Source of the DNA: a virus
Virus record (IMG/VR): IMGVR_UViG_3300029268_000147
Span: 1-22,189 of that record
Length of the DNA stretch: 22,189 nucleotides
Strand: one strand, 5' to 3'
Part shown: piece by piece, positions 2,354 through 12,816 of the stretch
How positions within the stretch are numbered: the stretch's first letter is position 1
Layout of the letters: each line of letters begins with the position of its first letter
Program-made: the position numbers and the translations under genes
Notes under the pieces: model-generated
Database searches by the model: none
What the model saw: only the letters and a program-made list of their open reading frames with translations
Told to the model about the DNA's origin: nothing

Positions 2354-3229
2354 CTATCTTTGATTATTAGCTATGAATGCTCTCAATGCAGCTTGTTGTG
2401 CCGCACTAAGAGCCCTGCCACCAGCTGTTGTTGCTTTGGCAGCTCCTTCTATTATTTGATTCCTTCTTGCATTTTGTGCCAGTATCGGCAACAGTTTTCT
2501 TAAAACTTCTTGTTCATCTAGTTGTGCAGTAAATTGACCTGTTGGTTCAGATATTCTATCTACTATTTTTTGACCGCCTTTTATTCTGCGGGCAATAGTT
2601 CCTGGTACGTTAGGGTCTTGTTCAACCAAGTTCCTTAACATGCTTGTAATATATGCGCTTTTGCGCCAATCATCTTCAGGTATAAACTTATCAAAAATCA
2701 TTCTATTTTGTTCAGCTACTTCGAAAGCTGCTCTAGCTGGGTCATCAACATTCCAGAAGTAAGAGTATCCAGGTGCCTGGTCCATTGCGGTAATGCCGCC
2801 CTTAGCAACAGATGGGTTTATCATGCCAGTTATGTTTGGATTTGGCGAGTGATGTAAACCGATATTTTTTGTTCTACCAAGTAAGTTTTTTACAATGCGT
2901 GGAGCAACTGCACCAATACCTCTTGCTGCGCCACCCGATAAGCCAAGTAGTGCTAAGTTTTGTATAAATTGTTTTTGTAGTGCTTGTCTATTGTCGGTTT
3001 TGCCAATGCCCTCTTGTGCTGCTAGTTGAACTAATGGAGAAAGCAATCCACCAGTTGCAAAAGCATCTGCTATTTGTACGCCTTTACCAATTGCACCAGC
3101 AGTAACATCTCTAGCTTGATTTACAAAACCACCCATACCCATAGCAGCTTGTGATGGAATGTTACCCAAACCAAGATTGAACTTTAAACTATCAGGCAGT
3201 TTATCTAATAAGTCATCAAGTTGACTCAT
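2354..3229 (-). CDS. Virion-associated protein with LHHSP...GYSYFW motifs (function unknown)
   Basis: This 291-residue protein has three visible parts. Residues 1-75 are Gly/Ala-rich and amphipathic (IPSQAAMGMGGFVNQARDVT..GAIGKGVQIADAFATGG). Residues about 120-215 look globular, including LHHSP (125-129), an Ile/Pro turn and GYSYFWN (154-160). The C-terminal 60 residues are Ala-rich and helical. Its start overlaps the stop of the 1362-aa gene as TAATG, so it is almost certainly translated with it and is probably ejected or carried with the internal proteins. The spacing of an early H-H, a later Y-x-Y-F and acidic residues is faintly like an ADP-ribosyltransferase fold, but this is only a resemblance. 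I give it no enzymatic name. Confidence 0.7.
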   Translation of the reverse strand: MSQLDDLLDKLPDSLKFNLGLGNIPSQAAMGMGGFVNQARDVTAGAIGKGVQIADAFATGGLLSPLVQLAAQEGIGKTDNRQALQKQFIQNLALLGLSGGAARGIGAVAPRIVKNLLGRTKNIGLHHSPNPNITGMINPSVAKGGITAMDQAPGYSYFWNVDDPARAAFEVAEQNRMIFDKFIPEDDWRKSAYITSMLRNLVEQDPNVPGTIARRIKGGQKIVDRISEPTGQFTAQLDEQEVLRKLLPILAQNARRNQIIEGAAKATTAGGRALSAAQQAALRAFIANNQR

Positions 3230-6200
3230 TATTTGTTTTTCCTTTGCTTTTCTCTTTCTTCCTTCGCACGAGTTGTTTCTGTTTCATCTAATAATAAGAA
3301 GAATCTTCTCCAGATTTCTGCTTTTTCATCTGATGGTAATTGCTGAAAGAATGGCAAACCAAATAGACTTAAGCCTGCATTGATTTCTTCGTTTCTTGCA
3401 TTCTGTTCATCGCCAACTTTTTTAGTGCCAGCAATCTTTTGCATCAATTCAAATCTACGCAATGGAGTTGCGTTTGCAATGCGCGCAACTAAACTTAATG
3501 GAGCACCCACTTGACGTAATGAATATACAAATCTGTCAAAGTTTGCGTCTGCCGACTTTTGATTTGTTACAGGAGCACCACTAAAGAATTGTTTATTCTT
3601 CCAAAGTTCTAGTGGAGTTTTTGGAATTGGACTTACGCGACCAAGCAATTGTTCTGGGTCAGTAAATAATTCTTCCACCAAGCTTGGTTGACCAGCTCCA
3701 GGAAATCCAAGGTCTGGTTGTAGATAAAGGTTGTCACCAAATGGAACTTTAAATGCACCAGCTTCTTTTCTATATGAACGCAAGAATGCACTTTCGTTTT
3801 CTTCATCTTTAAGATTGTCTCTAAACTTATTATAAGTCACATATGCTTTTGGATTGAGCCACATGTTTTCTATTTGTAAAGGTACGTTTCTAGATGCCCA
3901 AGTCCAGAAAGGAATAATCTGTTTAATAAATCTATCTGCATTTGATATGTCATTGTAGTCAATCAAATACTTTTGTGTTCTTGCGACAGCAGTTGCCGCA
4001 TCAAATCCTTGTTGAATTCCATCATAAGTTAATTGAAAACGATTCATACTTTCAATAAATGAACCAAGCTTACGAGAGCCATAAATAGGTAATCCTGCGA
4101 TTTCTGAAGCTGTTTTTAATCCAGGTATTTCTCTAGCAACGATTGTCTTTTTTAATCCTGGTATTTTAGTAACTAACGGTAGCGTTCCAGTTGCTTCTCT
4201 ACCAAATACACCTGGCCTATCAACACCTGCAGCCTGTGTAATTTCGCCAATTTGGCCAAAGCCTGTTGCTCCAGAATAAGCAAGTGCTTCACGAACTGCT
4301 GCCCTATCTGCTTCTTTTACTGATTTTGATAAAAATTGTTCTACCGTTAAACCAGCTTTTTGAGCACTTAACCAGTTTTTGTAAATTATTAATCCTTTAG
4401 AAAGATTGATTGGATTACCACCAGCAGCAATCATCATGAATGTATTTGTTAATGAGTTACGAAGATGGAATCCTGGTGTTAAAGTAACATAAGATTTAAA
4501 GAATGTATTATAATCTCTTAACAATGCATCTGCTGCACGAACAAATGCTGGGTCATCAAGTCTTTTAACATTAGTAAACATTTCTAATATTTCATTGCGA
4601 ACAGCAACATCTGGAATTGTTTTTTCATTTAACACAGTAAAACCATCGAGCACTGCTCTTTGAACACTTTGCCATCTGGATGGAGAAGTAACAAGAAAGT
4701 CTCTTGTTGTATTATTAATTGCAAGGGCGAGTCCGTTCGCAAGGTCTTCTATTTCTGTTCTTAACAAAGAAGCCATAGTTGGGTCGATTACGCCCGAATC
4801 AATAAGTCTGTTTGTGCTTATAATTTTTTCATCCAATTCAAGGAGAGCTTCTTGAAAAGCTTCCCTATCTATTGGAGATGCGCTAGCTAGTTTAGATTGA
4901 AGTCCAGCAATATCACTTCTAATTTCAAGAACATCTGTTTTATTCCATAACTGTAATCTGTCTGGGTTCATTAATCTTGCAATAGTACTTTGTAACGTAC
5001 CGAGTTCCATGCCACTAGGTTTTGTCCCCATTTTAGTTGTGGTGGGAAGCATGCTTATATCTTGAGCTAAGCCGCCAGCTCTTGCTGGAGATGTACTAGT
5101 AAGTTTTTCTAAGGCTGTTGCGTATGCAAGATATTTTGCATGATTCTCGCCATAAGCGGTTAATGCTTTTGCGGGGTTAAGTTCAAAGAAATCAAAGCCT
5201 AATGTTGGACGAGCAAGGTCATTTAATTGTGTGGTAGTTTCAGTTCCATCAAGAACATTACCAAACCATACTTTGCCTCTATCTAATGTTCTGTCGGTAA
5301 AGTTTCCTAAAAAATATGTTTTATCAACACCAAGGTCATCAGCTGCTTTAGTAGCAGCGTCTACATTTTTAGATGCCCATTCTAGTGCTTGAGTGCTTTG
5401 AACGCGAGGAAAATAATCAGGAAGCTTAGGAAGTGGTGGAGCGCCAACAATTGCTGCAGCGCTATCTGCTTCTCTGTAGAACTTATCAAGGGTGTCTCTT
5501 ACCTGGTCATAAACTGCACGTTCTGCAGTATCCAAGGAACGTAAGCCAGCAGCTGCCCATGTGGGTTCTGGCGTACTTAAGTGTTGTGATATATCTTGTA
5601 AAATTTGTTTATTTTTACCAGAAGTTAATCCTCTTATTGAAGAACTGGTTATTTTTCTTTGCAAATCTAATGTACCACGGTATGCAGTATCTGCACCAAG
5701 CAGCTGAACATAATCAGCAGCAACGTTTGCTGGAACGTTTTTACTTCTTAATGCATTGCGCATTTTAAGAATATCAGTTGAACCAAATAAACCACCTTCG
5801 CCAGTAGGAGTTATTTGATTTAATATTTTTTGACCAGCTTCTGACTTAAATAAAGTAAAACGACTACCCGACAATGCTGTACCAAATAAATCTGTAACTT
5901 TATTAGTAAAAGGAATTGTTACTTTAGGCCCAAAAGGTAAACCAATTCTTGCACCACTTCTTACTCCAAGTACTCTGGCTGCTTCTCCTCTAATAACCGC
6001 ATAACCTTTTGCTGCTATCTCTTGAATAAAATCATCAGTTAAAACCCTTAGAGCATCTTGTGCAACAATTTTTTGTCCAGCTGTTGATGCTGCGTCGTCT
6101 AGTATTTGTTGTGCAGCTATTTTTGCGCTTGCTACATTGTTTGCAAGAGCTTCTCGAGCAGGTCTACCATACACTCTTCTTGGTGCCGCTGCAGCTGCTT

Positions 6201-7317
6201 GTCTGAAAGCTTTATCTGCAGCAGATTGTGCTGCTTCTGCCGCTTGTTGAGCTGCTGTTTTTTGTGCCGCTGTTGATGCCGCATCGGCTGCAACTCTTGC
6301 TGCGGTTTGTGCTGCTTCTGCTGCTGCTATGTCTGCTGCCTGTCTTGCTGCTGCTGCAACAGATGCTTTTGTTGCACCCTTAACACCTTCAGCAACTGGT
6401 TTTACAAACGCACTACCGCCAAATGTTGCGTATGTTGCGGGGTCAGTAAAAACGTCATAAGAAAAGTCGATAATACCATCAATAATTTTATTGCCGGTTG
6501 ATGGCACATATGGATTATCGGATGCGCTATATGTAAAATCTTTCGTTGCTTTTTTAATATCACTAAAAGATGGTGAAGTAGTTCTTGCTTTTTGTTTTAC
6601 TAAATTTTCTTGAATTGATTTTATTTCTTCTGGCGTTTTGGCAGCATCGATGCCAGGTATTGGTGTATTTGCAACATCGATAGCGTTTTTAATAACATAA
6701 TCACCAGGTTTTGCTATTGGTAAACCCGTTTGTGAATGTACTGGAATATAATCGGTTGCTTTATAAACTTGTGCTTTTTCTCTTAATACTTTTTGTTTAA
6801 AAAAATCAATAGCTTCTTCATTTACTGAAAGAACAAAACGTCCTCCAGTTGTGAGCCCACCAAGTGCTGGAGCAACAACTGTTTTAATTGGTCTAAATTC
6901 TGTTTTTCCAGGGATAATATCAACATTAAATATTTTTGATAATACACTTTCTTTTTCTTTGCCTTCTACTATATCTTGTACAGTATCAACTGGAACTCCT
7001 GCTTTGATTGCTTTTTGGGTTTGTTCACGCAAAGACTTATTTGCCTCAAGTACGTCTGGTGTGGTTGATATTGCGCGAGGCACTTGTACTGGTCCAACTT
7101 TAACTGTTCCCGAAGGTGGCAGCGGAGGTTGACCAGATAGTAAACGTGACAATGAAGATTGTGTAGACGCTGGTTTTGGTGCAATTGTGGTTGGTGTTGT
7201 TTGCGCAGGCACCGTTGTAGACGTACCGCCTCTAATTAATTTAGACAATGCAGATTCCCTACCAGGAATTGTCGTAGGCGGAATTGGTGGCGTAGTATTA
7301 GTTGATTTAATTGCCAT
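3229..7317 (-). CDS. Giant internal virion / DNA-ejection-like protein (1362 aa)
   Basis: This is the largest gene of the window. Residues 1-75 are Pro/Thr/Ser-rich and low complexity (TTPPIPPTTIPG; TTVPAQTTPTTIAPKPAS). Residues about 316-385 are an almost pure Ala/Gln/Asp coiled coil (AAEAAQTAARVAADAAST). Large helical regions follow. Two blocks near the C-terminus are ones I associate with very large phage internal virion proteins: YVTLTPGFHLRNSLTN (about 944-959) and IPFWTWASRNVPLQIENMWL (about 1134-1153). No transglycosylase or protease motif was seen, so any cell-wall activity is unproven. In podoviruses such proteins are packed inside the head and ejected to form a conduit for DNA. Overlapping TAATG junctions on both sides show strict co-expression with its neighbours. 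The assignment rests on size, composition, gene order and these motifs. Confidence 0.75.
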   Translation of the reverse strand: MAIKSTNTTPPIPPTTIPGRESALSKLIRGGTSTTVPAQTTPTTIAPKPASTQSSLSRLLSGQPPLPPSGTVKVGPVQVPRAISTTPDVLEANKSLREQTQKAIKAGVPVDTVQDIVEGKEKESVLSKIFNVDIIPGKTEFRPIKTVVAPALGGLTTGGRFVLSVNEEAIDFFKQKVLREKAQVYKATDYIPVHSQTGLPIAKPGDYVIKNAIDVANTPIPGIDAAKTPEEIKSIQENLVKQKARTTSPSFSDIKKATKDFTYSASDNPYVPSTGNKIIDGIIDFSYDVFTDPATYATFGGSAFVKPVAEGVKGATKASVAAAARQAADIAAAEAAQTAARVAADAASTAAQKTAAQQAAEAAQSAADKAFRQAAAAAPRRVYGRPAREALANNVASAKIAAQQILDDAASTAGQKIVAQDALRVLTDDFIQEIAAKGYAVIRGEAARVLGVRSGARIGLPFGPKVTIPFTNKVTDLFGTALSGSRFTLFKSEAGQKILNQITPTGEGGLFGSTDILKMRNALRSKNVPANVAADYVQLLGADTAYRGTLDLQRKITSSSIRGLTSGKNKQILQDISQHLSTPEPTWAAAGLRSLDTAERAVYDQVRDTLDKFYREADSAAAIVGAPPLPKLPDYFPRVQSTQALEWASKNVDAATKAADDLGVDKTYFLGNFTDRTLDRGKVWFGNVLDGTETTTQLNDLARPTLGFDFFELNPAKALTAYGENHAKYLAYATALEKLTSTSPARAGGLAQDISMLPTTTKMGTKPSGMELGTLQSTIARLMNPDRLQLWNKTDVLEIRSDIAGLQSKLASASPIDREAFQEALLELDEKIISTNRLIDSGVIDPTMASLLRTEIEDLANGLALAINNTTRDFLVTSPSRWQSVQRAVLDGFTVLNEKTIPDVAVRNEILEMFTNVKRLDDPAFVRAADALLRDYNTFFKSYVTLTPGFHLRNSLTNTFMMIAAGGNPINLSKGLIIYKNWLSAQKAGLTVEQFLSKSVKEADRAAVREALAYSGATGFGQIGEITQAAGVDRPGVFGREATGTLPLVTKIPGLKKTIVAREIPGLKTASEIAGLPIYGSRKLGSFIESMNRFQLTYDGIQQGFDAATAVARTQKYLIDYNDISNADRFIKQIIPFWTWASRNVPLQIENMWLNPKAYVTYNKFRDNLKDEENESAFLRSYRKEAGAFKVPFGDNLYLQPDLGFPGAGQPSLVEELFTDPEQLLGRVSPIPKTPLELWKNKQFFSGAPVTNQKSADANFDRFVYSLRQVGAPLSLVARIANATPLRRFELMQKIAGTKKVGDEQNARNEEINAGLSLFGLPFFQQLPSDEKAEIWRRFFLLLDETETTRAKEEREKQRKNK

Positions 7318-9810: not shown

Positions 9811-11136
9811 TTACTTAAGATAGTCATACCACTTAACAACGGCATATCTTATGCCCTTTGTTACTGGATGAACCTGATGCATGTAGGGAAAACCCGACGA
9901 AAATACTACTATTTCGCCTGCTTCTGGTTTAATTTTAAGATTAAACTCTTTAAATTCTAATTCCCCACCTTCAAAATCATCATTTAAAAATAAAGATAAT
10001 GATACTACTCTTGGAAACATTGGATGGTCGTCTATATGATTATGAAATTTATTTCCTTCTTCATAACGCAATAGAACGGTGTGATGACTTACCAGTGGCA
10101 CTATGCTGTATCTGCCTCTAAAGTCTTCTATAATCGCATCCAGGCCCGTCTGAAGGGACTCTGCAGCCCTACGTAATGGGTCTTGTGGATGGCAACTAAA
10201 TTCTTTATCAGTTATAAAATAATTATAACAATTTCTTGCGGCATAGTCTACACCTGGTTTATCATCTTTTACTAATACTTCTGCTGGCTTCCATTGTTTA
10301 AACATTGCATTTTGAATTAATCCCTTTAGTGTGCGGGCTGATTCTCTAGCAATCTTATACTTAACAATTCCTGGTGCTAACTCTATTTTATCTAAAATTG
10401 TCATATCTACTATCTCTGGTTTTGAGTCTGTTAGATGTCCAAAGAATTCATCGTAAAATCTTAATATCACTGAATAGTTATGACAGTTACAAACTGGTTG
10501 GGCTATTGGGGCATCAGGCATTGCAAAGTAGCGATTGCGATTAAAGAACCTTGCATCACCATCTGAACCATACTTATGAAACCCGTCTTTATCTGTTTGA
10601 ATCCAGTGGTCTGGTTGTGTAAAGTGTAAAAACAATACTGTTGTGTGTGCAGTCTCGTCTTTTGTTGGATATGGTGGCCTTGCATGCATATGCTGTTGAC
10701 CAGCAAAGATAATTGCATCATTAGGATTTTGTTCAAAGTGTTGACCTTCTACTATTAATCCCCAGTTTGCAGTATTGTCTATAGTTATATCTATTGTTGT
10801 TTGCGTGCCGTTTTGGTCGGTGTGTTCCCAAAGGTGTGGAACACAACCATTCTTTCTTTGATATCTTACAGCAAAAAAGTATGCTTTCTTTAAAGAATCA
10901 TCTTTAAATATTTCTCTTGCCTTTTGAATGCAGTGTTCTTCAATGTCAGCATCAAACTGTACTGGTGCTTCCCATCTGGCAAGCATGGTATGAAACTCTA
11001 CTTTGTCCGTACCCATTCCAGTTTCTGCAACCGTTTTCTTAACACGGTCGAGCATGTGTTCTGGAAAGAAGTTTTTAATTATCTTTGGTTCAGATAAGAC
11101 TTCTGGCAGTTCAAATAAAATTTCTTTTGTTAACAT
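9811..11136 (-). CDS. Protein with two 2-oxoglutarate/Fe(II) oxygenase-like (DSBH) domains
   Basis: The C-terminal half is a prolyl-4-hydroxylase-type 2OG-Fe(II) dioxygenase. Counting from the ATG at 11142, it has FHNHID with the H-x-D metal pair at His369 and Asp371, then the core VSLSLFLNDDFEGGELEF, then GEIVVFSSGFPYMHQVHPV with the distal His425 and the 2-oxoglutarate-binding Arg432 (GIRYAVVKWY). The N-terminal half repeats the logic more loosely: EHTD (His107/Asp109), a strand-rich stretch with WGLIVEGQHFEQNPNDAIIF, and QHMHARPP (His151/His153, Arg155), so it may be a second, perhaps divergent, domain. Such enzymes hydroxylate protein side chains or nucleobases; the substrate is unknown. 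The start is a choice: ATG 11136 overlaps the upstream stop as TAATG, like other junctions here, while ATG 11142 would add two residues. It lies between surface-protein and internal-protein genes. Confidence 0.85.
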   Translation of the reverse strand: MLTKEILFELPEVLSEPKIIKNFFPEHMLDRVKKTVAETGMGTDKVEFHTMLARWEAPVQFDADIEEHCIQKAREIFKDDSLKKAYFFAVRYQRKNGCVPHLWEHTDQNGTQTTIDITIDNTANWGLIVEGQHFEQNPNDAIIFAGQQHMHARPPYPTKDETAHTTVLFLHFTQPDHWIQTDKDGFHKYGSDGDARFFNRNRYFAMPDAPIAQPVCNCHNYSVILRFYDEFFGHLTDSKPEIVDMTILDKIELAPGIVKYKIARESARTLKGLIQNAMFKQWKPAEVLVKDDKPGVDYAARNCYNYFITDKEFSCHPQDPLRRAAESLQTGLDAIIEDFRGRYSIVPLVSHHTVLLRYEEGNKFHNHIDDHPMFPRVVSLSLFLNDDFEGGELEFKEFNLKIKPEAGEIVVFSSGFPYMHQVHPVTKGIRYAVVKWYDYLK

Positions 11137-11366
11137 TACCATTTACCGATTGGGCATGTTGCTTTTTCTAGTTTAACTTTCATGTTCATAAAACATCCAC
11201 ACTGCTTGCACTGTTTGGTTGCCTTAATTAATTCAGGACAATCCATGCACAATGACATTCGTGTGCTTTCTATGTCTTCTGTAACCTTTGGGGCATTTGG
11301 ATTTAACATGTCCCAAGGTTTTGTATCGCCTAACTTTTCTTTATATTTTTGCCAAGCCGAGGTCAT
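11136..11366 (-). CDS. Six-cysteine zinc-binding protein, DUF6171-like
   Basis: A 76-residue protein. After a helical, basic start (SAWQKYKEKLGDTKPW) it carries C40-x2-C43, C53-x2-C56-x-C58 and C71 within SLCMDCPELIKATKQCKQCG and a terminal ATCPIGKW. This layout, with the closing CP-x2-KW, is one I know from short phage proteins (DUF6171-like) that often accompany 2OG-Fe(II) oxygenase or fibre genes; the family name is from memory. It probably binds one or two zinc ions. The gene overlaps the following oxygenase gene by TAATG and the preceding gene by ATGA, so the three are translated as a unit. Its role may be to assist the oxygenase or a structural protein, which the sequence does not show. 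Confidence 0.7.
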   Translation of the reverse strand: MTSAWQKYKEKLGDTKPWDMLNPNAPKVTEDIESTRMSLCMDCPELIKATKQCKQCGCFMNMKVKLEKATCPIGKW

Positions 11367-11584
11367 GGTTTTACGAATTCTCCGTTGACGTATCTGTCGC
11401 CCATCTGCACGTCGGCGTTCTTTGGATATTGGACGATTACTGGATTAGACTGCAATACAGCAATGAAATGTTCGTTTTGTGGCGGAATGCGCATCATGAA
11501 AGCGACCTCTCCGTCACAAACAAAGGCGAATGGTATAAGCGTCGTTGGGTCAATGTTCGGTATCGGTTGTATCTGTTGTTGCAT
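11363..11584 (-). CDS. Small conserved phage protein with FVCDGEVAFMMRIP core
   Basis: A 73-residue protein. The core IPFAFVCDGEVAFMMRIP, then ALxSNPVIV-type sequence (FIAVLQSNPVIVQYP), then a short end (MGDRYVNGEFVKP), is a beta-alpha-beta-like mini-fold that I recognise from many marine phage structural regions, where it is unnamed. AAGGAG sits 5 bases before the ATG and its stop overlaps the next start as ATGA, so it is translated despite two long plus-strand frames across it. It may be a small virion or chaperone-like protein for the neighbouring surface proteins; function unknown. Confidence 0.65.
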   Translation of the reverse strand: MQQQIQPIPNIDPTTLIPFAFVCDGEVAFMMRIPPQNEHFIAVLQSNPVIVQYPKNADVQMGDRYVNGEFVKP

Positions 11585-11611
11585 ATTGCTCCTTCGTTTA
11601 TCTATTCGTAA

Positions 11612-12217
11612 TTAACCCAAACAATCGTTTGGCAGTCCGTAGTTACAACCGACGAATAATCCGTATGAACAACATCCGTCGCTTGTAAAGTATGCCTCCC
11701 AGTCACCATAACGGTCACCGCAAATTTGCGGAATGCATTGGTTGTAACTGTATTGATACACCCACGCACCACCAGGAGGTGCACCATAATCATTACAGTT
11801 AATTCCTGCACATGGGTCTACTGGTGGAGTAACTGGCGGTGTAACAGGCGGTGTTACAGGAGGTGTTACGGGTGGAGTAACTGGCGGCACCACTGGAGGA
11901 ACGACAGGTGGAACTGCCGGAGTTACCGAGTTAGATGCTGCAGAGTATTCGCTGTTTGCGCCGTAAGATGTTTCTGTTCTAACTTGAAAGGTATAAGATA
12001 CGCCGTTTGTTAAACCAGTTACAGTAATTGGAGATGCTGAACCAGTAGCAGTAACGTTGTCTGGAGTTGATATTGCACGGTAAGTTACAGCACCACCCTT
12101 ACCCGTGTAAGATGGCACCGTAAATGCAACAGTTGCCTGAGCATTGCCGCCTGTGGCGGTTCCAATGGTTGGTGTTCCTGGAGCACCACCGCTACCTGCA
12201 ATTACGTTTATTAGCAT
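11612..12217 (-). CDS. Surface/fibre protein: fibronectin-III domain, TPPV repeat stalk, Cys-rich tip
   Basis: A 201-residue mosaic. Residues about 12-100 are a fibronectin type III domain of the kind frequent on phage surfaces (GAPGTPTIGTATGG; SPITVTGLTNGVSYTFQVRT; NSEYSAASNSVTP). Residues about 98-134 are a Pro-rich stalk of Thr/Val-Pro-Pro-Val units. Residues about 135-201 are Cys-rich (eight cysteines, starting DPCAGINCNDYG and ending PNDCLG), rich in Tyr and Gly, and probably disulfide-bonded. I infer an exposed tail- or head-fibre accessory that binds the host surface. Start MLINV at 12217 makes TAATG with the previous stop and has AGGAG 13 bases upstream; a TTG 30 bases earlier is less likely. 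A prolyl-hydroxylase-like oxygenase is encoded two genes downstream in the same operon. Confidence 0.75.
   Translation of the reverse strand: MLINVIAGSGGAPGTPTIGTATGGNAQATVAFTVPSYTGKGGAVTYRAISTPDNVTATGSASPITVTGLTNGVSYTFQVRTETSYGANSEYSAASNSVTPAVPPVVPPVVPPVTPPVTPPVTPPVTPPVTPPVDPCAGINCNDYGAPPGGAWVYQYSYNQCIPQICGDRYGDWEAYFTSDGCCSYGLFVGCNYGLPNDCLG
11816..11919 (-). repeat. 12-base tandem repeat encoding Thr/Val-Pro-Pro-Val units
   Basis: About eight 12-base units, in register with the codons, encode the (T/V)PPV stalk of the surface protein. The units differ at many third positions (GGC, GGA, GGT; GTA, GTT on the plus strand) while the amino acids stay nearly constant. This indicates selection on the protein sequence rather than fresh slippage. 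Confidence 0.85.
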
Positions 12218-12816
12218 TAGGCTGCCAAGTCTCCTAAGACTACCCAACTGTTGGATGACCTTTTAATCAAAACTGCCGAAGACCATTGTGCACGTAGTTT
12301 TAATCCTGGTGTTCCGTTTAATGTTACACCTGAACCAGCAACAAATGTTGTTTGTCCTGCGCCAGTTTGAATTACTACTATCTGTGTTCCGTTAGCGAAG
12401 TTCACGGATGACTCTGGTGGTATTGTAACGTTAACGCCAGAAGCATCATTCTTTTCAATTATTGTTCCGTCATCTGTTAATTGAAATGTATAAGCGCCAA
12501 CAATTGGAGTTGGTGCAGAGTGCGCAATTACGTTGCCAGTCAAATTTAATGAAGTTCCCGTAGCAACACCAAGTATTGGCGTAGTTAAGCTTACTGAGGT
12601 TTGAATTTTAGCACTAGTTACGGCGCCTGTAGCAATCTTGGCAGCTGTAATAGCAGTTGCTGCAATATCTTCTGTGTTGATTGCTCCAGCGTCAAAGTTT
12701 GCACCTGTTGATAATCCTTCTGCAAAGTTTTTTACTGCGGTAAAGTTTGCATTCATTTCTGGTGCATCGATTACCTGACCGTTAGCAAATGAATTGGGAA
12801 TATTTAATGTTGCCAT
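12217..12816 (-). CDS. Tail/head fibre-like protein (199 aa)
   Basis: It begins with IPNSFANGQVIDAPEMNANF, an N-terminal motif very common in phage fibre proteins (I-P-x-x-F-A-N-G-x-x-I-D-A-x-x-M-N-x-N-F), probably the anchor to the virion. It continues with an Ala/Thr repetitive shaft (AATAITAAKIATGAVTSAK) and a beta-rich C-terminal region with QIVVIQTGAGQTTFVAGSGV and SSAVLIKRSSNSWVVLGDL. The last element resembles the distal domain of many phage fibres. No endosialidase or lyase motif is visible. The gene has a good ribosome site (AAGGAG) after a hairpin-containing gap and overlaps the next gene as TAATG, so the two surface proteins are co-translated. Confidence 0.8.
   Translation of the reverse strand: MATLNIPNSFANGQVIDAPEMNANFTAVKNFAEGLSTGANFDAGAINTEDIAATAITAAKIATGAVTSAKIQTSVSLTTPILGVATGTSLNLTGNVIAHSAPTPIVGAYTFQLTDDGTIIEKNDASGVNVTIPPESSVNFANGTQIVVIQTGAGQTTFVAGSGVTLNGTPGLKLRAQWSSAVLIKRSSNSWVVLGDLAA

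Follow-up and report, generated by a model that had tools for sequence, protein, structure and literature searches.

A tandem 2-oxoglutarate oxygenase predicted to hydroxylate the proline-rich stalk protein encoded in its own phage operon

Comparison of a small phage operon with related viral loci makes it likely that this phage hydroxylates the prolines of its own adhesin stalk during infection, using an oxygenase fitted to the stalk repeat, with glycosylation added in some relatives. A first-pass annotation of this DNA had proposed that the adjacent stalk is the target of the oxygenase; this gained strong comparative support from the co-occurrence of the two genes and from their co-switching on one phage backbone, whereas a specific role for the six-cysteine protein, suggested there as a possible partner, was not supported. 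The window, by which we mean the whole stretch of DNA that was analysed, is an IMG/VR virus record of 22,189 bases with portal and major capsid proteins that are SU10/P22-like and Mx8-related. On its minus strand, the genes of interest are arranged in the order TF199, stalk protein, P73, ZN76, and OXY, as follows.

9811..11142, minus strand: OXY, a tandem 2OG-Fe(II) oxygenase of 443 aa and predicted prolyl hydroxylase (ORF list, Pfam, PHROG, alignment, and model).
10498..11142, minus strand: putative N-terminal 2OG-type domain of OXY, aa 1-215, with H107xD109...H153 (motif and PHROG; a separate gene in other phages).
9814..10395, minus strand: C-terminal P4H-like domain of OXY, aa 250-443, with H369xD371, H422, and R432 (Pfam, alignment, and PDB profile and fold matches).
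11136..11366, minus strand: ZN76, a six-Cys protein (CxxC..CxxCxC..C), DUF6171-like, a conserved neighbour (Pfam and PHROG).
11363..11584, minus strand: P73, 73 aa, a small conserved gene in the interval between the stalk gene and ZN76 (comparison with relatives).
11612..12217, minus strand: adhesin-like stalk protein of 201 aa, comprising fn3, a (T/V)PPV stalk, and a Cys-rich tail (Pfam, PHROG, and comparison).
11933..12151, minus strand: fn3 domain, aa 23-95 of the stalk protein (Pfam E 4.5e-5, slightly under the curated cut-off).
11819..11914, minus strand: Pro-rich stalk of 8 (T/V)PPV units (codon comparison).
11615..11818, minus strand: Cys-rich C-terminal tail of the stalk protein, variable among relatives (comparison with relatives).
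12217..12816, minus strand: TF199, a tail-fibre-like protein encoded just before the stalk gene (upstream) and the backbone anchor (PHROG).

OXY shares a few bases with ZN76, and so does ZN76 with P73, consistent with a single translationally coupled operon. The operon that had been described, with an oxygenase and a fibre-like protein separated by two small genes, is borne out by the open reading frames on this strand. Elsewhere in the window (3229-7317) lies a gene for a 1362-aa protein, possibly an internal or ejection protein, whose conservation is very uneven (about 26-78% identity among relatives).

Residues 357-439 of OXY match 2OG-FeII_Oxy_3 (PF13640) in Pfam with an E-value of 1.8e-16 and 61.3 bits against a cut-off of 27. 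The iron ligands of this C-terminal domain are H369, D371, and H422, and R432 is the basic residue 10 positions after H422. The earlier assignment of H369, D371, and R432 to a P4H-type fold therefore stands, but H425, which had been taken as the distal iron ligand, varies among homologues and must give way to H422, which is invariant in 16 of them. The model of the full protein (AlphaFold2; pLDDT 92, pTM 0.91) contains two double-stranded beta-helix (DSBH) domains in tandem, and a separate HxD...H set is conserved in each of them. The N-terminal domain, which had been overlooked, keeps H107xD109...H153 in 17 diverse sequences and matches phrog_2954 among the PHROG profiles; profile searches with it gave no significant match in Pfam or to PDB sequences, and a single-sequence model of it reached a pLDDT of 30. 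One member of the N-terminal type matches Asp_Arg_Hydrox weakly (E 0.006). On the strength of the motif, the phrog_2954 match, and a predicted structure with confident DSBH-like strands, we regard the domain as putatively of the 2OG class.

The best PDB matches of the OXY model in Foldseek are mostly prolyl hydroxylases, and the matches include P. putida P4H, an algal P4H with (Ser-Pro)5, the viral P4H of PBCV-1, and PHD2, together with the tandem-domain Tpa1/OGFOD1. A PDB profile search with the C-terminal domain returned a PKHD-type hydroxylase, a bacterial P4H, P3H1, and EGLN1. By fold similarity, OXY is predicted to be a prolyl-hydroxylase-class enzyme. Tpa1/OGFOD1, the ribosomal protein S23 prolyl hydroxylase, belongs to the same class and likewise has two consecutive DSBH domains. 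In Tpa1, only the N-terminal domain is known to be catalytic, whereas the HxD...H set is kept in both domains of OXY and both occur elsewhere as separate genes, the N-terminal type standing free beside PPV stalks in other phages (L027/L245, L246, L254, and L258). A scan of genome contigs for OXY found no relative, and tblastn against annotated phages gave only partial matches of less than 60% identity, mostly in cyanophages. The related 2OG genes of cultured cyanophages lie near baseplate and other genes and are not obviously beside Pro-rich stalks. In cyanophages, some genes that carry the label 'DNA endonuclease V' or 'ferrochelatase' seem to encode 2OG oxygenases (e.g., NC_021536 21210-21815; L305:5323-5928), and the PHROG labels of phrog_274, 2297, 2954, and 3531 look misleading.

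The stalk, previously put at about eight units, consists of exactly 8, of which 3 are VPPV and 5 are TPPV. When the codons for P, P, and V are compared pairwise between units, the 62 differences all fall at third positions and 0 at first or second positions, from which it follows, as the first-pass annotation had argued, that the peptide sequence of the stalk is conserved. We infer from the tail-fibre-like neighbours of the 201-aa protein that it is a virion adhesin. Stalk length differs strongly among close relatives, with ∼30 TPPV units at L013:8246-9514 as opposed to 8 in the window. Another stalk protein (L022:7647-9278) has several Cys-rich modules with (PVTA)n and PPV linkers between them, and in a third (L020:10081-10785), an endosialidase-chaperone-like C-terminal domain comes after an (FFPP/YFPP)n stalk, on a contig that also carries a TPPV stalk and two oxygenases.

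Scans of viral contigs yielded 26 and later 46 loci. Co-occurrence was counted in 26 tandem-oxygenase loci whose upstream sequence exceeded 2 kb and from which near-identical enzymes had been removed, this removal being the only handling of kinship in the counts. A Pro-rich protein adjoins the tandem oxygenase in all 26 of these non-redundant loci, with at least 8 prolines in 20 residues in 25 of them and 7 in the 26th, which is of the FFPP type; in these relatives, the oxygenase is thus not found equally often without a Pro-rich partner. Plain Pro-richness (at least 8 P in 20) was rejected as a marker, being unspecific: it was also found at 21 of 131 control anchors elsewhere in related contigs and at 24 of 37 major capsid protein (MCP) anchors. 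We therefore used the architecture of a Pro stalk with a Cys-rich tail instead, which was present at 24 of the 26 tandem-oxygenase loci as compared with 0 of 131 control anchors and 0 of 37 MCP anchors. The association extends to unrelated backbones (L007, L022, and L027), where the stalk protein has an N-terminal part not homologous to that in the window and yet keeps the stalk and Cys-rich tail. Among 50 other contigs with PPV repeats, only 4 had a PF13640 gene, and 46 had TPPV-like repeats without a 2OG gene. Prediction thus works from the enzyme to the stalk, and not from the repeat by itself to the enzyme. The automatic selection of stalks skipped L040, a read-through ORF, and likewise the oxygenase of L107; both belong to the contig of L013, which has a TPPV stalk and a tandem oxygenase.

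A six-Cys gene of the ZN76 family was also present in 26 of 26 non-redundant loci. Despite this, we rejected a dedicated partnership for ZN76, the six-cysteine zinc protein that had been named as a possible partner, because the family is wider and occurs in phages that have no such stalk or oxygenase nearby. In loci seeded with this family, stalk and oxygenase or glycosyltransferase genes were associated (Fisher p 4.5e-5, a descriptive value uncorrected for kinship). ZN76 itself matches DUF6171 at 29.2 bits (cut-off 27) and phrog_13558 at 6.9e-15, and its profile gave no significant match in the PDB, with RPB12 among the weak matches. Two proteins of the family, NC_015463 gp034 (L308:4749-5168) and NC_013021 gp085 (L309:4566-5123), bear the annotation 'RNA polymerase-like' or 'DNA-directed RNAP', which apparently stems from a short zinc-ribbon similarity.

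Enzyme and stalk also change together. In phages whose capsid gene is homologous, this site is occupied by an fn3 protein with differing stalks: the TPPV stalk pairs with the tandem enzyme, a polyproline stalk (PPPPPGPPPPP) with a 203-aa oxygenase, a PTP stalk (PTPT or PTPPA) with a pair of oxygenases of 199 and 165 aa, and a PPDF stalk with a 244-aa oxygenase. On a tree of two backbone proteins, where a few long branches leave some placements unsure, stalk type changes at least 8 times and oxygenase type at least 9 times. There is one mismatch, L066, with a polyproline stalk and ZN76 and no detectable oxygenase. In L079, where the same backbone has a different adhesin at this site, the stalk, ZN76, and oxygenase are all absent together. 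Between L060 and L077, DNA homology spans fn3 and then the small gene and ZN76, but the stalk to one side of these two genes and the oxygenase to the other are different. The fn3 and ZN76 trees also track stalk type in part, and since the stalk and enzyme genes are close together, some of the co-switching could reflect co-transfer of a cassette as a block.

Several related loci encode putative hydroxyproline glycosyltransferases, which the first-pass annotation did not foresee. At L175:8232-10391, a 720-aa protein with an HPAT-like domain fused to the tandem oxygenase adjoins a six-Cys gene and a Pro-rich stalk gene. The HPAT-like domain alone matches the hydroxyproline O-arabinosyltransferase family (E 7.6e-7), and a free-standing homologue, 49% identical, is present in the window-like phage of L077. 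PF11397, which we take to be the Skp1 hydroxyproline GlcNAc-transferase family, was found in 11 of 50 contigs with the module as compared with 1 of 50 PPV-only contigs, and the latter contig also has a 2OG gene. Judging from this gene content, hydroxyproline is probably glycosylated in some relatives. No HPAT-like or PF11397 gene was seen within the 22-kb window fragment; in two relatives, GT2 and methyltransferase genes lie just past the point homologous to the left edge of the window. The L175 contig carries several further 2OG genes after the fusion gene, and at L022 a PF11397 glycosyltransferase gene follows the oxygenase. In a window-like phage, a sulfotransferase gene (L317:5291-6106) neighbours genes for collagen-like fibres and represents another possible fibre modification.

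The oxygenase might instead modify the same adhesin elsewhere than at the stalk prolines, for example at Asp, Asn, or Lys in the Cys-rich tail or fn3 domain, which we consider unlikely. Such a target would fit the regular presence of the tail beside the stalk (24 of 26 loci), the hydroxylation of Asp and Asn by other 2OG enzymes of related fold, and the weak Asp_Arg_Hydrox match of the N-terminal type; yet the Cys tails are highly variable and the Pro repeat is the constant part, enzyme type is tracked by repeat type, the nearest structural relatives of the OXY model are prolyl hydroxylases, and the HPAT fusion at L175 points to hydroxyproline. We give equally little credence to a target outside the adhesin, whether the collagen-like fibres with GPT repeats that these phages encode, EF-Tu or a ribosomal protein of the host, or a metabolite, in which case the gene would be an auxiliary metabolic gene. 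Collagen-like fibre proteins are also encoded by relatives, but they are disfavoured as the substrate driving enzyme type because one is identical at 308 of 314 positions between two relatives that differ in oxygenase type and in stalk, so that enzyme type does not follow the fibre. The titles of the structures give EF-Tu as the target of P. putida P4H and Rps23 as that of Tpa1, and PHROGs classes such genes as auxiliary metabolic genes, but an enzyme with a host target is not expected to switch with the stalk repeat or to disappear with the adhesin as in L079. Less probable still is passive linkage, in which the oxygenase would be functionally unlinked to the stalk and exchanged with it as a block within a hypervariable host-recognition cassette: the switches do resemble recombination and the fn3 and ZN76 trees do partly follow the stalk, but co-occurrence is near complete across unrelated backbones with different upstream proteins, the intervening genes of L060 and L077 are homologous while both flanks differ, and glycosyltransferase families named for hydroxyproline are enriched.

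If OXY hydroxylates the stalk, as we favour, the locus would be a cassette by which the phage modifies its own tail appendage. The adhesin of 201 aa would comprise an fn3 base, an extended polyproline-type (T/V)PPV stalk, and a small Cys-rich tip, and the tandem oxygenase would use O2, 2-oxoglutarate, and Fe(II) to hydroxylate stalk prolines in the infected cell prior to assembly. Within a PPV unit, each OXY domain could target one of the two prolines, or the domains could act sequentially. Several relatives add a glycosyltransferase, either of the Skp1 hydroxyproline-GlcNAc family or of the HPAT-like type, which presumably would glycosylate the hydroxyproline. Where the stalk repeat has been exchanged the oxygenase has been exchanged too, which is what recognition of the repeat by the enzyme would predict. 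The purpose may be rigidity, protease resistance, or receptor interaction.

The nearest viral precedent for OXY is the chlorovirus P4H of PBCV-1 (vCPH, PDB 5c5t), a virus-encoded enzyme of P4H fold. According to the passage of PMC9301287 that cites Eriksson et al. 1999, evidence of 4-hydroxyproline in viral proteins was reported for it. The PBCV-1 enzyme is a single domain from an algal virus, whereas OXY is a tandem enzyme that a tailed phage encodes in one operon with the presumed substrate; in addition, the phage loci have enzyme types matched to the repeat, and relatives add putative hydroxyproline-type glycosyltransferases. In the Skp1 PhyA/Gnt1 pathway of Dictyostelium, a prolyl hydroxylase is followed by a GlcNAc transferase that acts on hydroxyproline. 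The PF11397 genes in 11 of 50 related contigs resemble this pathway, but the presumed substrate here is a repetitive stalk and the window showed no PF11397 gene.

The closest functional analogue appears to be the plant extensins, and lectin-like glycoproteins of the extensin type have a Cys-rich domain as well. In plant and algal extensins and hydroxyproline-rich glycoproteins, a Pro-rich rod is accompanied by a 2OG prolyl hydroxylase and a hydroxyproline arabinosyltransferase (PMC4132260). The likeness lies in a Pro-rich repeat and a P4H-class gene that are encoded together in 26 of 26 tandem-oxygenase loci; the phage system differs in being phage-encoded and cytoplasmic with other repeats, in that sugar addition is a prediction, and in that the window has no HPAT-like gene. 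We advance only tentatively, and with some doubt, the broader notion that tailed phages run an extensin-like pathway, in which repeat-specific hydroxylases and glycosyltransferases would turn a simple Pro-rich stalk into a stiff, sugar-coated rod that ends in a Cys-rich receptor-binding tip, and swaps of the stalk during adhesin evolution would carry the enzyme set along. A literature search, with many subscription journals outside its scope, found no paper linking phages, hydroxyproline, glycosyltransferases, and tail fibres.

Prolyl 4-hydroxylase and other 2OG oxygenase genes are frequent in aquatic viromes, where they are usually classed as auxiliary metabolic genes, and according to one paper the viral use of prolyl 4-hydroxylase 'remains cryptic' (PMC9301287). 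Since a candidate substrate is encoded adjacent to the enzyme and enzyme type predicts repeat type, the question can be tested directly with peptides. Glycosyltransferases in phage host-recognition regions are usually assigned to changes in lipopolysaccharide (PMC7029224), and our findings offer an alternative reading for some of them. If the proposed function is correct, such 2OG genes would encode virion-maturation enzymes, repeat-specific prolyl hydroxylases would become usable as tools, and phages would join plants and algae as makers of hydroxyproline-rich rods.
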